Shown in pieces: positions 5,315 to 39,169 of a DNA stretch of 47,125 nucleotides. The notes below the pieces were generated by a model, which had not been told where the DNA came from, searched no databases, and worked only from the letters and a program-made list of their open reading frames with translations. Source of the DNA: Bacteroidales bacterium (lineage in GTDB: Bacteria > Bacteroidota > Bacteroidia > Bacteroidales > UBA932); assembly GCA_017428245.1 (NCBI GenBank), contig JAFRRF010000012.1, positions 1 to 47,125 on the forward strand, in the 5' to 3' direction. Made by a program: the position numbers and the translations under genes. Within the stretch, counting starts at the first letter, position 1. Each line of letters starts with the position of its first letter.

Positions 5315-5333
5315 GACAATCAATTTCTGCATC

Positions 5334-5361
5334 ATGCCCGGCTCCGGCCGGGCATCTTTTT

Positions 5362-26660: not shown

Positions 26661-28565
26661 TCAAGGGAAGACATTACCGTCTTCGTCGAGGAGGAGGATG
26701 GTGAGAGAGGATGCGGGATAGACGGAGGCGCAGGCGGTGCGGCAACGCTCGAGGATGGCGGAGAGGAAAAGATTGAGGTCGGAGGACGGAAGGCCGTGCC
26801 AGAGCTCGCGGGCGAGCGTGAGACCGTCGATGGCGTCGGCTGTGGCAGGCGTGCAGCCGGCAGAGACGGCGACTTCCTTCAGGAACGCTTTGTTCATCAC
26901 CACGCTTTTGCTATGGGTGTCCAGGTGTCCTTCGGCCAGCTTGACGGCTTTGCCGAGCATAATGCCCATCGTGACCTGCGGAACCCGAAGGTCGGCGGCA
27001 ATCTTCAGGGTCTCGCCGATGAAATTGCCATAATGGACGAACGCCTGGGGCGGCAGGTCGGGAAAGCGGGCCTTGAGGAAGGCCTCGCTTTTGGCGCCGG
27101 AGTTGATGACCAGCATCGGCGTACCGACGGCCACGGCCACTTCGATTTCACGGCGGATGGCATCGACGAAGGCTTCGTTAGAGAAAGGACGGACGATGCC
27201 GGAGGTTCCGATGATGGAGATGCCGTCGACGATGCCCAGTTTCGGGTTGAAGGTCCGGCAGGCCAGTTCCCGGCCGCCGGGCACGGAGATGGTAACGTCG
27301 AGGCCGCCGGCGTAAAGGGCGGAAAGGTTCTGTTCCATCATCCGGCGCGGTACGCGGTTGATGGCCGGGCCACCGATCGGCAGGCCCAAGCCCGGCAGCG
27401 TTACACGGCCGACGCCCTCGCCCTGCAGGAAATGAACCCCCGGCTCATCGCTGAAAGTCACCGTAGCGACAATCTCCTGCCCGTTCGTCACGTCAGGATC
27501 GTCACCCGCATCCTTAATCACAACAGCAGTCGCGGAATCCGAAAGGGCTTGCGTGTGCTGGTCTGGTGGAGCGGAGGGTTCTTTCAGGTCGGGCCTTGGA
27601 CCGACCTGAAAAGGTTCTGACGCGCGCTGGAAAGCAAGCCCCTGAGGATTCCGTAGGGTAACGGGAAGCGAAAGAATTTCTCCATCCGGGAACAATACTT
27701 CAACGTTCTCTCCAACGGGTTGGCCGAGGAGCGAGAGCAGGGCGGCTTTGGCGGCGGCGGTGGCGCAGGCACCGGTCGTGAAACCGCTGCGGAGCGGGAA
27801 GAAGCCGGGTGCCAGCCGCTCGATGGCCTTCCGCAGTCCGTGCTCGCCGGTGACGGTCTCGAAGCCGGCCGGCAACGCCGGTCGACGGACCACATACACC
27901 GGAATCCCGGCCGCCTGCGCGGCCGCGACTTTCTCGTTGAAACCGCCCGATTCCCCGCTTTCCTTCGTCAGGACGGCCTGCGGCTGCAGCCGGGCTATCA
28001 ACGACGCATCGTCCACTTCTTCGTAATACACCAGCCGTTCTACCGGAAAACCTTGCCCGACGGCTTTCTCCAGCGACTCGTTGCGCCGCAGGATGCGGAA
28101 CCAGCAGTCGTGGGCCGACCAGTACGGCCGCAGTTTCCCGATAGTCTGAACCCCGGTCAACGCCAGCAACCGCGTGATGCCGTCGGCCTCCATTTTTCGG
28201 ATGGCATCGGCGTAATCGTCGCACCAGCGGAGCGATGTCCGGTCGGAGCCGGGCTCGCCGCTCCCGTCGGTATAAACCCGCTCCACACGAACGACCGGGA
28301 GGTCGAGCGACTCGGCGACGGAGGCGACGGTACGGTGGAGTTCGGTGGCAAAAGGATGCGCGGCATCGATCAGAAGACGGATGTCGTGATCCCGGCAGAA
28401 CGCGCTCATAGCAGCCTCATCGAGCGCCCCGGTGATATGCGTCCCGTTCTTGCACTCAATCTGCTGCAGATCCCCCCGCGTCGAATACCAATACGGCGAA
28501 CCCGCCCCATCGGCCACCCGCACTGCCAGCCGTCCCTCCGTCGTTCCACCGAGAATCAGGATCAT
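26661..28565 (-). CDS. cbiJD: CbiJ-CbiD fusion: cobalt-precorrin-6A reductase / cobalt-precorrin-5B C1-methyltransferase
   Basis: A 634-residue bifunctional enzyme of the anaerobic corrin ring pathway. Residues 1-250 are CbiJ (GGTTEGR at 6-12, DAAHPFA, ALTGVQTIGKL, LTKESGESGGF). Residues 257-634 are CbiD (RSGFTTGACATAAAKAAL, KDAGDDPDVTNG, GGPAINRVPRRMM, NPKLGIVDGISIIGTSG). A roughly 26-residue insertion (about 314-340) encoded by a palindromic element lies between LSLPVTLRNPQG and ATAVVIKDAGDDPD. The start overlaps the cbiGF stop by 4 bp. It is the last gene of its operon and ends 10 bp from the convergent antitoxin gene with no terminator between. Confidence 0.95.
   Translation of the reverse strand: MILILGGTTEGRLAVRVADGAGSPYWYSTRGDLQQIECKNGTHITGALDEAAMSAFCRDHDIRLLIDAAHPFATELHRTVASVAESLDLPVVRVERVYTDGSGEPGSDRTSLRWCDDYADAIRKMEADGITRLLALTGVQTIGKLRPYWSAHDCWFRILRRNESLEKAVGQGFPVERLVYYEEVDDASLIARLQPQAVLTKESGESGGFNEKVAAAQAAGIPVYVVRRPALPAGFETVTGEHGLRKAIERLAPGFFPLRSGFTTGACATAAAKAALLSLLGQPVGENVEVLFPDGEILSLPVTLRNPQGLAFQRASEPFQVGPRPDLKEPSAPPDQHTQALSDSATAVVIKDAGDDPDVTNGQEIVATVTFSDEPGVHFLQGEGVGRVTLPGLGLPIGGPAINRVPRRMMEQNLSALYAGGLDVTISVPGGRELACRTFNPKLGIVDGISIIGTSGIVRPFSNEAFVDAIRREIEVAVAVGTPMLVINSGAKSEAFLKARFPDLPPQAFVHYGNFIGETLKIAADLRVPQVTMGIMLGKAVKLAEGHLDTHSKSVVMNKAFLKEVAVSAGCTPATADAIDGLTLARELWHGLPSSDLNLFLSAILERCRTACASVYPASSLTILLLDEDGNVFP
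27552..27627 (-). repeat. Palindromic protein-coding element, copy 1 (in cbiJD)
   Basis: A 76-bp segment of the cbiJD coding strand, bounded by GCGCGCG and GCACACG, matches the 77-bp segment at 38451-38527 in about 63 of 77 aligned positions by eye. Its core is an 11-bp perfect stem (27582-27592 with 27601-27611) around an 8-nt loop. Translated in frame it adds residues 314-339, including DLKEPSAPPDQHT, to the CbiD part. Confidence 0.8.
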
Positions 28566-36012: not shown

Positions 36013-36606
36013 ATGACACAACGTATTTATACACGGACCGGTGACAGCGGAACCACGGGCATACACGGCGGTTCCCGCGTACCGAAAGACGACATCCGCA
36101 TCGAGGCCAACGGCGACCTGGACGAACTGAACTGCCAGATCGGCGTGGTCCGGGCAATGCTCCGATGCCCGGTCGAACCGGGCATGACGGAAATGCAGTG
36201 GGACGAAGGACTGCATCATATTCAGCAGAATCTGATGACGGTGATGAGCCTTGTAGCGACCCCGTCGGCCGAGCGGGCGAAAAACCCGAATGAGCTGCCG
36301 GAGAATCTGGTGGCCGACTGCGAAGCGGCAATCGACGCGCTGACGGAACAGGCCGGACCGGGCCTGCACTTCCTGCTGCCGGGCGGCACGCCGCTGGCGG
36401 CACAACTGCAGCTGGCACGGGCCGTATGCCGCCGCGCAGAGCGGCATCTCTGGGCGTTGAACCGCCGGGATTCCGTCCCCGAAGAAATCCTGCAATACAT
36501 CAACCGACTTTCCGACCTGTTCTTCGTCATGGCCCGCTGCGAACTGGCCCGCCAGGACTGGCCCGAAGAACGATGGAAAGCCTTCGCCTACAAAAACCGG
36601 AAATGA
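36013..36606 (+). CDS. Cob(I)yrinic acid a,c-diamide adenosyltransferase, PduO type
   Basis: A 197-residue ATP:corrinoid adenosyltransferase. The ATP-binding N-terminus YTRTGDSGTTGIHGG (about 6-20), the EANGDLDELN segment, and the C-terminal RAVCRRAERHLWAL and INRLSDLFFVMAR motifs are all typical of the PduO family. It adds the upper 5'-deoxyadenosyl ligand to cobalt. Its stop overlaps the cobQ start by 3 bases. Confidence 0.93.
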   Translation: MTQRIYTRTGDSGTTGIHGGSRVPKDDIRIEANGDLDELNCQIGVVRAMLRCPVEPGMTEMQWDEGLHHIQQNLMTVMSLVATPSAERAKNPNELPENLVADCEAAIDALTEQAGPGLHFLLPGGTPLAAQLQLARAVCRRAERHLWALNRRDSVPEEILQYINRLSDLFFVMARCELARQDWPEERWKAFAYKNRK

Positions 36607-38108
36607 ACGAGCGCCTGCATCCCGTGATGTTCGCCGGAACCGGCAGCGACGTAGGCAAGAGCATCATCGCCACCGCTTTCTGCCGGATTTTCCGCCAGGA
36701 CGGCTACAATCCGGCGCCGTTCAAGGCGCAGAACATGGCGCTCAATTCTTTCGCCACACCCGAAGGGCTGGAAATCGGACGGGCACAGGCCGTGCAGGCC
36801 GAAGCGGCCGGCGTTCCCTGCCACACCGATATGAACCCCCTGCTGCTGAAACCCCAGAGCGACCACACTTCGCAGGTTGTGCTCAACGGGAAGCCCATCG
36901 GCAACCGCGATGCATACGAATACTTCCGCAAGGAAGGCCGTGAGGAACTGCGCGACGCCGTCTATGCGGCCTACGACCGCCTGGCAGCGCGCCACAACCC
37001 CGTCGTGATGGAAGGCGCCGGAAGTCTGGCCGAGATCAACCTGCGTGATTCCGACCTGGTGAACGTACCGATGGCGATGCATGCGGGCGCTGACATCATC
37101 CTGGTGGGCGACATCGACCGGGGCGGTGTCTTCGCAAGCGTATACGGCTCGGTGATGCTGCTGCGGCCCGAGGAGCGGAAGTACGTCAAGGGTATCCTCA
37201 TCAATAAATTCCGCGGTGACTTGCGGCTCTTTGAAGAAGGGCGCCGGATGCTGGAAGAGCTTTGCGGCATTCCCATACTGGGCGTAGTCCCTTACTACCA
37301 CGATATCCATATCGAGGAGGAAGATTCCGTGGCGCTGGCGGCCAAGTCGGCGGCGGCACAACGGGGCAAGATCAACGTGGCGGTGGTTCTGCTGCGCCAC
37401 ATCAGCAATTTCACGGACTTCAACGTGCTGGAGCGCGATCCCCGGGTCCATCTATTCTATAGCAACAACGTGGATGAGCTGGCCAAGGCCGACATCCTCA
37501 TTCTGCCGGGCAGCAAGAGCACCCTCGACGACTTGTATGAACTCCGGCGCAACGGCGTGGCGCAGGCCATCCTGCGGGCCCGTCGCGAAGGGGCGACCAT
37601 TCTGGGCGTCTGCGGCGGCTACCAGATGATGGGGGTCCAGATCCGCGACCCTCACCACATCGAAGGCCCGATCGAAGCGATGCCCGGACTGGGGCTGCTG
37701 CCGATGATCACGGAGATGCTGCCCGACAAGGTTACCCGCCAGGTCCGCTTCGCAATAGCCGACTCCGCACAGGCCGGCCGTTTCCCGTTCGAAGGGTACG
37801 AAATCCATATGGGCGAGACGATTCCCGTGGAAGGGAGCATCTTCACGCCGCTCAACCGGCTGGAAGACGGTCACGACGACGGTTGTTTCGTAGACGAAAA
37901 GTGCATGGGCAGCTATCTGCACGGACTGCTCGACAATCCAGCGTTCATCGACCGGCTGCTGGCGCCGCACAGCGCCAGACTCACGGAAGCCGCCGCGCAG
38001 TTCGACTATCACGCCTTCAAGGAGACGCAATACGACAAGCTGGCCGCGCACGTGCGCAGGTACGTGGACGTGCCGTTGCTCTACGACATTCTGAAAGGAA
38101 AGCGATGA
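36603..38108 (+). CDS. cobQ: Cobyric acid synthase
   Basis: A 501-residue glutamine-dependent amidotransferase (CbiP/CobQ) that amidates carboxylates b, d, e and g. The N-terminal ATP domain has GTGSDVGKSIIA and APFKAQNMALNS, with VVMEGAGSLAEINLRD later; the C-terminal triad-type glutaminase domain has LPGSKSTLDDL, GVCGGYQMMG (catalytic Cys) and GSYLHGLLDN (catalytic His). The ATG at 36603 overlaps the PduO stop. The frame is open far upstream, but homology begins at this ATG. Confidence 0.96.
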   Translation: MNERLHPVMFAGTGSDVGKSIIATAFCRIFRQDGYNPAPFKAQNMALNSFATPEGLEIGRAQAVQAEAAGVPCHTDMNPLLLKPQSDHTSQVVLNGKPIGNRDAYEYFRKEGREELRDAVYAAYDRLAARHNPVVMEGAGSLAEINLRDSDLVNVPMAMHAGADIILVGDIDRGGVFASVYGSVMLLRPEERKYVKGILINKFRGDLRLFEEGRRMLEELCGIPILGVVPYYHDIHIEEEDSVALAAKSAAAQRGKINVAVVLLRHISNFTDFNVLERDPRVHLFYSNNVDELAKADILILPGSKSTLDDLYELRRNGVAQAILRARREGATILGVCGGYQMMGVQIRDPHHIEGPIEAMPGLGLLPMITEMLPDKVTRQVRFAIADSAQAGRFPFEGYEIHMGETIPVEGSIFTPLNRLEDGHDDGCFVDEKCMGSYLHGLLDNPAFIDRLLAPHSARLTEAAAQFDYHAFKETQYDKLAAHVRRYVDVPLLYDILKGKR

Positions 38109-39169
38109 TTCAAGGGCACGGGGACGACGCATACCGCTTCGGGCGGCCCATCCGGGCGAATTTCAGCTCGAATGTCTACGGTCACGTGGATCTCGCGCCG
38201 CTGAAAGCGCATCTCCGCACGCGTCTCGATGCCATCGGCCATTATCCCGAGCCCGAGCCCTACACCTTGGAAAAAGCCCTCGCCGACCGGCTGGGCATCG
38301 ATTCCGCCGCCGTCTGCGTGACTTCCGGCGCCACCGAAGCCATCTACCTCACCGCCCACGCCTTCGCCGGCAGCCAGACCACCATCCTCCAGCCCACTTT
38401 CAGCGAATATGGCGACGCTTGCAAGCTCTATAATCACCAAATGATTCCCTGCGCGCGGAAGAACCTTTTCAGTCCGGGGACAAGCCCCGAACTGAAAGAA
38501 CCTGCCGCTCCGCCAGGCCAGCGCACGACAGTATGGCTCTGTAATCCGAATAATCCGACGGGAGAGGTCATTCCGAAAGATGAATTGGTAAAGACGATTG
38601 AAGCGCATCCGGAAACGGTTTTCGTCATCGACCAGTCGTATGGTTTTTTTACGCAGGAGCCGCTGCTGAGCACGGCGGAGGCCGTGACGTTGCCCAATGT
38701 CGTCCAGTTCCACTCGATGACCAAACGCTACGCCATGCCGGGCCTCCGGCTGGGCTACATTACCGCCAATCCGCAATTGCTTGAACTTTTACGCGCCGTA
38801 CGCATGCCCTGGTCGGTCAATGCCCTGGCCATCGAAGCGGGCCTGTTCCTGTGCAGTCATCCCGACATCTCCCCCATCGACCGGCCGGCCCTGCTTCGGG
38901 AGACGGAGCGGCTGCGCGGTGATCTCGACGCCATTCCCGGCATTTCGGCCCTGCCGACCCGGACGCATTTCTTCCTCTGCCGCCTCGACCACGGACGGGC
39001 CGCCAATCTCAAGCAATGGCTGGCGGAAGAGCACGGCCTGCTCATCCGTGATGCCGCCAACTTTGAGGGGCTGGACGGGAGGTATTTCCGCATCGCCACA
39101 CAGACGCCGGAAGAAAACGATCTGCTGGTGGAAGCCGTCCGGCAGTATTTGAAATGTAGCGTCCAATGA
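38105..39169 (+). CDS. cobD: Threonine-phosphate decarboxylase-like PLP enzyme
   Basis: A 354-residue class I/II aminotransferase-fold enzyme. The start HGDDAYRFGRPIRANFSSNV is typical of CobD proteins, followed by TSGATEAIYL, WLCNPNNPTG (about 144-153), DQSYGFF and the PLP-lysine motif SMTKRYAMPGLRLGY. It should make (R)-1-aminopropan-2-ol phosphate for the cobinamide side arm; an alternative serine-phosphate substrate is possible. Residues about 116-141 are encoded by a palindromic element just before WLCNPNNPTG. It overlaps cobQ and cbiB by 4 bp each. Confidence 0.88.
   Translation: MIQGHGDDAYRFGRPIRANFSSNVYGHVDLAPLKAHLRTRLDAIGHYPEPEPYTLEKALADRLGIDSAAVCVTSGATEAIYLTAHAFAGSQTTILQPTFSEYGDACKLYNHQMIPCARKNLFSPGTSPELKEPAAPPGQRTTVWLCNPNNPTGEVIPKDELVKTIEAHPETVFVIDQSYGFFTQEPLLSTAEAVTLPNVVQFHSMTKRYAMPGLRLGYITANPQLLELLRAVRMPWSVNALAIEAGLFLCSHPDISPIDRPALLRETERLRGDLDAIPGISALPTRTHFFLCRLDHGRAANLKQWLAEEHGLLIRDAANFEGLDGRYFRIATQTPEENDLLVEAVRQYLKCSVQ
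38451..38527 (+). repeat. Palindromic protein-coding element, copy 2 (in cobD)
   Basis: A 77-bp segment matching the element in cbiJD with one single-base indel in the loop. The stem TTTCAGTCCGGGG (38467-38479) pairs with 38485-38497 around the loop ACAAG, with one mismatch. Compared with the cbiJD copy, one stem pair changes on both sides (CAGG/CCTG against CAGT/ACTG), a compensatory change. The indel shifts the frame of the left arm, while the right arm is read in the same frame in both genes (LKEPSAPP and LKEPAAPP). Confidence 0.8.

Follow-up and report, generated by a model that had tools for sequence, protein, structure and literature searches.

Translatable selfish repeats inside genes are on record, in the sources consulted, from Rickettsia and, as other MITEs and REPs, from further bacteria. 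Rickettsia palindromic elements (RPEs) are described as hairpin-forming repeats of ~105–150 bp that lie in frame in unrelated genes (PMC10969869, PMC2229807). ERIC, YPAL, and the 107-bp Correia element are likewise repeats of mobile type that form in-frame fusions with host genes and, as described in PMC2229807, belong to other hosts and mostly carry conserved terminal repeats and target duplications. Palindromes inside ORFs are also recorded from several phyla as GTAG- or CGTC-tagged REPs, some of them within longer palindromes, and the CGTC type is given there as having no known transposase (PMC3733652). Template switching in yeast genes homogenises the arms of inverted repeats and inverts the spacers between them (PMC8604942), and template switching can create and maintain hairpins (PMC8794818). 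In the mitochondria of Nematomorpha, inverted repeats occur inside translated genes (PMC6649704).

Here, we analysed a 47,125-nt contig of a Bacteroidales bacterium (the window; JAFRRF010000012.1, assembly GCA_017428245.1), in which a palindromic element is inserted in the CbiD half of cbiJD. Like RPEs, the element forms a long palindromic hairpin (27533–27653, 121 bp) and belongs to a family with in-frame inserts in several unrelated protein genes, whose frames remain open; unlike RPEs, it is hosted by a different phylum. The preliminary description had seen a resemblance to RPEs in principle, and this holds in the sense that, judged by its described features, the element appears to work like one. 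Compared with RPEs as described in PMC10969869 and PMC2229807, its stems covary, by compensating changes, around two nearly fixed loops, residents of the same site occur in both orientations with one apparently inverted in place between sister species, and its outer stems can hold inverted host sequence; these features are also new with respect to the preliminary description. The yeast case shares arm homogenisation and inversion between arms in coding DNA, but concerns short inverted repeats rather than a dispersed mobile family (PMC8604942), and both arms of the Nematomorpha palindromes encode conserved protein regions, whereas the insert studied here fills a variable loop (PMC6649704). In the passages retrieved by our literature searches, we recognised no earlier account of this family and none of another in-frame family of palindromes in Bacteroidales. 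What the family contributes to this record is a large number of orthologous sites, filled and empty, and a probable in-place inversion between sister species, which make it testable how such repeats survive in proteins, why hairpin pairing is kept up, and whether new protein loops are seeded in this way.

The hairpin element in cbiJD

A block at 27552–27627, with a perfect 11-bp hairpin and a counterpart in cobD, had been singled out in the preliminary description. The hairpin was recovered (27582–27592 with 27601–27611) and the repeat pair proved real, as inverted matches of 85% over 47 nt (27552–27598 vs. 38481–38527) and 81% over 36 nt (27601–27636 vs. 38442–38477) that did not shrink on alignment; BLAST of the CbiD block against 38442–38527 gave 80% (E 3.2e-15). 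The block stood as the core of a longer hairpin element of ~121 bp, but its extent was too short, because the outer stem (27533–27552/27634–27653) is part of the element. The parts of the element, its host gene, and the second copy in the window are listed below.

27533–27653, + strand, antisense to cbiJD: whole element, outer stem to outer stem (DNA and RNA folds; covariance-model match 27550–27639)
27533–27552, + strand: outer stem P0, left arm, with the pieces CGGAATCC (27533–27540) and GGGCTTGC (27545–27552); pairs with 27634–27653 in both folds
27553–27570, + strand: internal loop J0, 5′ side; GYGYGNTGGCCTGGTGGA in the family, and mostly conserved across the alignment of 66 copies
27571–27576, + strand: stem P1, left side; partner 27618–27623; covarying in the family (helix 1), imperfect in this copy
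27577–27581, + strand: internal loop J1, 5′ side, GGTTC; in 64 of 66 aligned copies
27582–27592, + strand: stem P2, left side (the 11-bp hairpin of the preliminary description); partner 27601–27611; strongly covarying (helix 2)
27601–27611, + strand: stem P2, right side; strongly covarying (helix 2)
27613–27617, + strand: internal loop J1, 3′ side, GGTTC; in 56 of 66 aligned copies, with 6 more offset by one column
27618–27623, + strand: stem P1, right side; covarying in the family (helix 1)
27624–27633, + strand: internal loop J0, 3′ side; close to GCGNTGGAAA in the family, with GG conserved and the remainder more variable
27634–27653, + strand: outer stem P0, right arm, GCAAGCCC (27634–27641) and GGATTCCG (27646–27653); both folds
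26661–28565, − strand: host gene cbiJD (CbiJ + CbiD), open through the element (ORF; Pfam CbiJ and CbiD)
38439–38529, − strand: second element copy (covariance-model match, 84.9 bits)
37883–39169, + strand: ORF of a CobD-type aminotransferase that hosts the second copy without a break in its frame (the Pfam match, Aminotran_1_2, extends across the insert); counted from the first TTG, the true start probably being later; the name CobD is that of the preliminary description, and Pfam gives aminotransferase class I and II

The 144-nt region folded better than 200 of 200 dinucleotide shuffles both as DNA (z −3.47) and as RNA of the mRNA strand (z −3.80). One covariance model fitted both window copies, with 84.5 and 84.9 bits for copies that were both in its training set, and the next-best match in the window reached 13.7 bits. 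Rfam returned no match at the gathering threshold for 4 element loci, and its sole match in the window region was a microRNA family (21.9 bits vs. a threshold of 97); a known RNA family was rejected on these results. From anchor to anchor, the CbiD protein measured 95 residues with the insert vs. 58–63 in 11 empty orthologues, so that ~32–37 residues are added rather than the ~26 first estimated. In the predicted structure of the CbiD half (mean pLDDT 77), residues 61–86, within the insert, were modelled as coil between two strands with pLDDT <50, in a place where alignment gaps at the insert alone depress confidence.

Covarying stems, fixed loops, and variable outer stems

The alignment of 66 copies (78 pattern hits less 5 judged false by eye and 2 without flank, giving 71, less 5 similar rows) and the diverged subfamilies shared a common plan, reading 5′ to 3′ P0, J0, P1, J1, P2, and terminal loop, in which J0 has GYGYGNTGGCCTGGTGGA on the left and a form near GCGNTGGA on the right, and J1 sets GGTTC opposite GGTTC. 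P1 and P2 were paired in 91.6% of 1122 cells vs. 75.6% after shuffling, and their covariation was 0.441 vs. 0.152, with 0 of 500 shuffles as high; these shuffles ignore the relatedness of copies, which inflates such measures. When the partner was slid by one to three columns the signal was lost (covariation ≤0.123), and both sides had changed at 15 of the 17 pairs, in 181 cells vs. 50.7 in shuffles. The stems were shown to be kept paired by changes on both sides, with the loops nearly fixed. J1 was a perfect pair in 0 of 66 aligned copies, so correction to a perfect palindrome alone cannot explain the pattern. Strong covariation is possible in dispersed DNA without showing RNA function.

Outer stems were scored per copy, the right flank being inverted and compared with the left, with mismatched flanks from other copies as control. 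The 99% level of the control was exceeded in 30 of 104 copies (best score 29), including the CbiD copy of the window (score 14 vs. a control level of 11), and an outer stem above it was absent in the other 74. In the gene for the Uup-type ABC-F protein of G011, the left arm is the host sequence for DIEKAAP, much as in orthologues, and is repeated in inverted form by the right arm; in CbiD of G018 and G036, it is the left arm that is the inverted copy, of a right arm reaching into the ESAVATV or DAATATV region. We infer the direction of host-sequence copying in these three genomes, which would run from the host-like arm to its inverted counterpart. Conserved terminal inverted repeats of the MITE type were not found; the outer stems vary from copy to copy, and copies share ends within a genome in G007, part of G001, and G032. 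As to REP tags, most copies have GGAG ahead of P1, but inspection by eye showed neither GTAG nor CGTC as a constant tag of the family; REPs of these types are 20–40 bp long with a tetranucleotide tag and stems of 5–13 bp, whereas the element is longer and has two internal loops (PMC3733652). In the tested features, the element differs from REPs and MITEs.

Distribution of the family

The further copies anticipated in the host genome were found: 5 full copies, 4 of them inside long open frames, were detected by BLAST, and the covariance model gave the same 5. The four places other than the CbiD copy (contigs C37, C14, and C44 and the second window copy) had E <1e-6, and a short partial match was also seen on contig C54. 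The four in-frame copies lie in CbiJD, the CobD-type aminotransferase, and two ABC-F ATPases; the fifth full copy is spanned by no long frame.

A DNA search of 61 genomes found the element in 15, all within the 37 same-genus genomes (that of the window included), and in 0 of 24 genomes of other genera. With the covariance model it was detected in at least 20 of 40 genus genomes and, under stricter filters, in at least 1 of 295 genomes of an order-wide sample, where it was seen in the window's genome only; this sample held three other members of the same family as that genome. The genomes were drafts, and the model scans took only some of the first-look candidates of each genome to scoring (107 in the genus, 14 in the order), so that these counts are lower bounds. 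An exact 20-base pattern searched across 84,980 species gave 36 stretches, 34 of them in Bacteroidales or Bacteroidia records; the MAG record titles of 6 stretches name rumen or omasum. Two stretches from elsewhere were rejected as relatives and taken as chance, one from Hyphomicrobiales without a model match and one from Bryobacteraceae (15.4 bits, E 0.021). No Rickettsia record was listed by this exact scan, which could easily miss one. Carriage by phage was likewise rejected, as the exact 20-mer occurred in 3 viral contigs yet none had a model match at E 0.01. Altogether, 113 rows yielded 104 distinct copies after merging of 9 rows (8 representing the same place twice and 1 an identical copy in another genome).

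Host genes and open reading frames

Among 45 ORFs submitted to Pfam, one (36013–36603 in the window) is not an element host; a family was returned for 30 of the 44 spanning ORFs (26/40 + 4/4) and nothing for 14, several of the 44 being alternative frames of one copy. Assignment of copies to genes was restricted to those with a Pfam hit. The element lies within or between domains in CbiD, the CobD-type aminotransferase, ABC-F, TrmO, RsmE, GH3, GH43, a glycerate kinase–RNase HII fusion, an HI0933-like protein, an endonuclease/phosphatase, and MacB. In a CbiG protein, a methyltransferase, an ABC protein, and two radical SAM proteins, one of them with TRAM, the element is found at the border of the named domain or beyond it (loci L036, L047, L056, L081, and L104); at L036 it comes before the CbiG domains and might lie ahead of the real start. 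The copies L005 and L214 lie outside spanning frames.

Such a range of hosts bears on whether the CbiD and CobD coding sequences could be similar by shared protein ancestry, which had been excluded at the outset, or by chance. Either origin is virtually impossible given the DNA-level match (E 3.2e-15), the CbiD orthologues that lack the stretch, and the related copies found in a wide range of other protein families and, in part, where no frame spans them.

Per core, a mean of 4.32 of 6 frames was open vs. 3.11 in mononucleotide shuffles, and all six were open in 25 of 104 cores vs. 1.6% of shuffles. Host genes were shown to stay open through the element in either orientation. Open frames in both orientations and in several frames suggest that the element tolerates translation, as proposed in the preliminary description, and that copies may be translated.

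Orthologous filled and empty sites

CbiD was matched in 24 of 40 genus genomes, and 23 were readable at the insert spot. Of these, 10 were filled and 11 empty, and the loops of G003 and G010 were longer or looked like remnants. The insertion is thus missing from some orthologues and, with further copies in the genome and a match that held on alignment, neither of the refuting conditions set in the preliminary description applied. Among 30 genes read for the Uup-type ABC-F protein, 13 were filled and 17 empty; model matches in the Uup gene region of G004 and G007 fall outside these 30. In a quick Uup tree, computed with the linker left out, one starred group held 12 of the 13 filled genes and one empty gene, and insert presence took 3 changes on the tree vs. 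10.0 for shuffled labels.

A clean intergenic empty site was seen in the window's genome (G000), which continues without interruption where the nearest relative (G063) has 97 nt inserted (L214 vs. L248); no clear target duplication was seen at this single clean empty site. At another site (L213 vs. L253), the window's genome keeps the left J0 joined directly to the right J0 with the hairpin gone, which looks like a scar, and at the L209 site it has a degenerate copy. The comparisons at L212, L218, and both at L219 were too diverged for clean edges, and no empty site could be aligned for L216.

Some further sites deserve mention. In the window's genome, GATGCCCGG...CCGGGCATGACG repeats stand at or beside sites where G063 has the hairpin element (L253 on contig C17 and L257 on contig C41), so that permissive spots seem to be used by more than one palindromic family. 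G063 (L219) and G018 (L054) each have a pair of oppositely oriented copies separated by 360 nt, at a position that looks the same in both species. Identical 90-base copies with near-identical flanks in G004 (L232) and G033 (L237) are probably at the same site.

Orientation and probable inversion in place

CbiD inserts are in sense orientation in G063, G011, G018, G007, and G036 and antisense in G000, G024, G034, G023, and G031; at Uup, 5 are sense and 8 antisense. With one of them inverted, the CbiD cores of G000 and G063 match at 88 of 95 bases; otherwise the best local match is 24/30. Their host flanks agree in gene orientation (43/56 and 48/56). By this alignment, the CbiD insert of G000 vs. 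G063 is an in-place inversion or something resembling one. At least 3 orientation changes were required at Uup and 4 at CbiD on the Uup tree, the latter counted on 8 of the 10 filled genomes, those in the tree.

Occupancy of one site in both orientations could also arise by repeated independent insertion, in random orientation, at a handful of hot spots that are permissive or palindromic, instead of by inheritance and flipping. The insert loops do look permissive, a diverged subfamily is present at the same Uup site (G027, G024, and G033), and REPs inside palindromes are recorded elsewhere (PMC3733652); as a general account we nevertheless consider it somewhat unlikely, since G000 and G063 have the variant GGAGCGGAGGG at CbiD in common, oppositely oriented and with 88/95 identity, and insert presence at Uup needs 3 rather than 10.0 changes. 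Part of the same-site occupancy may nonetheless be re-insertion, as the diverged Uup subfamily would indicate.

The mixed orientation, by which the mRNA carries either strand, also bears on whether each hairpin is a functional RNA or DNA structure, kept by selection per site for a host role in mRNA stability, translation, or regulation. Strong covariation and near-invariant loops would fit such a role, as would 6 pairing-preserving double changes in five orthologous pairs with G063, a comparison in which broken pairs were uncountable and the fold used both sequences. We regard it as improbable, given 5 and 5 inserts in the two orientations at CbiD and 5 and 8 at Uup, empty genes at 11 of 23 CbiD and 17 of 30 Uup sites, and unrelated host proteins. 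Moreover, ratios of G.T to A.C mispairs on the element strand were 6:1 in 22 sense, 13:9 in 20 antisense, and 11:7 in 24 unlabelled copies, so that no reversal with gene sense was apparent in these small numbers with sense labels assigned by us.

Mobility and proposed mechanism

Six places in G007 had one model score, two of which were compared and found identical over 90 bases, and a group of similar copies is present in G032. Such near-identical copies at different places suggest recent spread. The transposase search covered the Y1 class: Y1_Tnp matches were present in 27 of 40 genus genomes (68 matches listed), namely in 19 of 20 genomes with the element vs. 8 of 20 without it. This distribution, and the action of RAYTs on single-stranded REP hairpins (PMC3733652), would agree with a REP-like element moved by the Y1 (RAYT) transposase of the same genomes. 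Yet the correlation between genomes is confounded by phylogeny, G018 has copies but no Y1 match (in a draft 87% complete), and no copy was found near the 30 Y1 loci fetched from the 68 matches listed, with ~1.5 kb on each side where the contig allows; around these loci the covariance model gave nothing above 13.6 bits (E 0.32), and several had hairpins of different sequence. A Y1 transposase as a neighbour of the element was rejected accordingly, and mobilisation by this class appears unlikely. Several of the Y1 (RAYT-like) ORFs at these loci (L145–L174) are flanked by hairpins of their own, e.g., AATCGTGTGCG...CGCACACGATT, apparently a separate repeat family.

The probable explanation, in our judgement, is a genus-limited, non-autonomous palindromic mobile element of ~90–125 bp that would be flipped and re-paired as a resident by template switching. 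The nearly fixed loops, on one strand, would be what the mobilising machinery recognises. In resident copies, template switching between the hairpin arms during replication would re-pair the stems and invert the part between the arms; at times it would also lengthen the outer stem, by adding an inverted copy of neighbouring host sequence. Copies would persist in genes whose protein tolerates a loop and where no stop arises. Free correction of stems should also perfect J1, which was seen in 0 of 66 copies, so that selection on the loops or recent insertion would be needed in addition.

More tentatively, and with somewhat less than even chances, the family may represent a new class of bacterial mobile hairpin with fixed loops, freely changing stems, no target duplication, and an in-frame flip-flop that drags neighbouring host codons along, to form an inverted copy of them on its other side. 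If this were true, flip-flop through hairpin-primed template switching would let ordinary proteins gain, flip, and lose whole loops.

Other palindromes in the window

A second palindromic repeat of the window, GATGCCCGGTCGAACCGGGCATGACG at 36164–36192, lies in frame in a cobalamin adenosyltransferase gene (36013–36606; Pfam Cob_adeno_trans) and resembles, by eye, the CGTC-tagged REPs described in PMC3733652. Another palindrome of the GATGCCCGGTCGAACCGGGCATGACG kind, with mismatches to the pattern, is present at 5327–5356.
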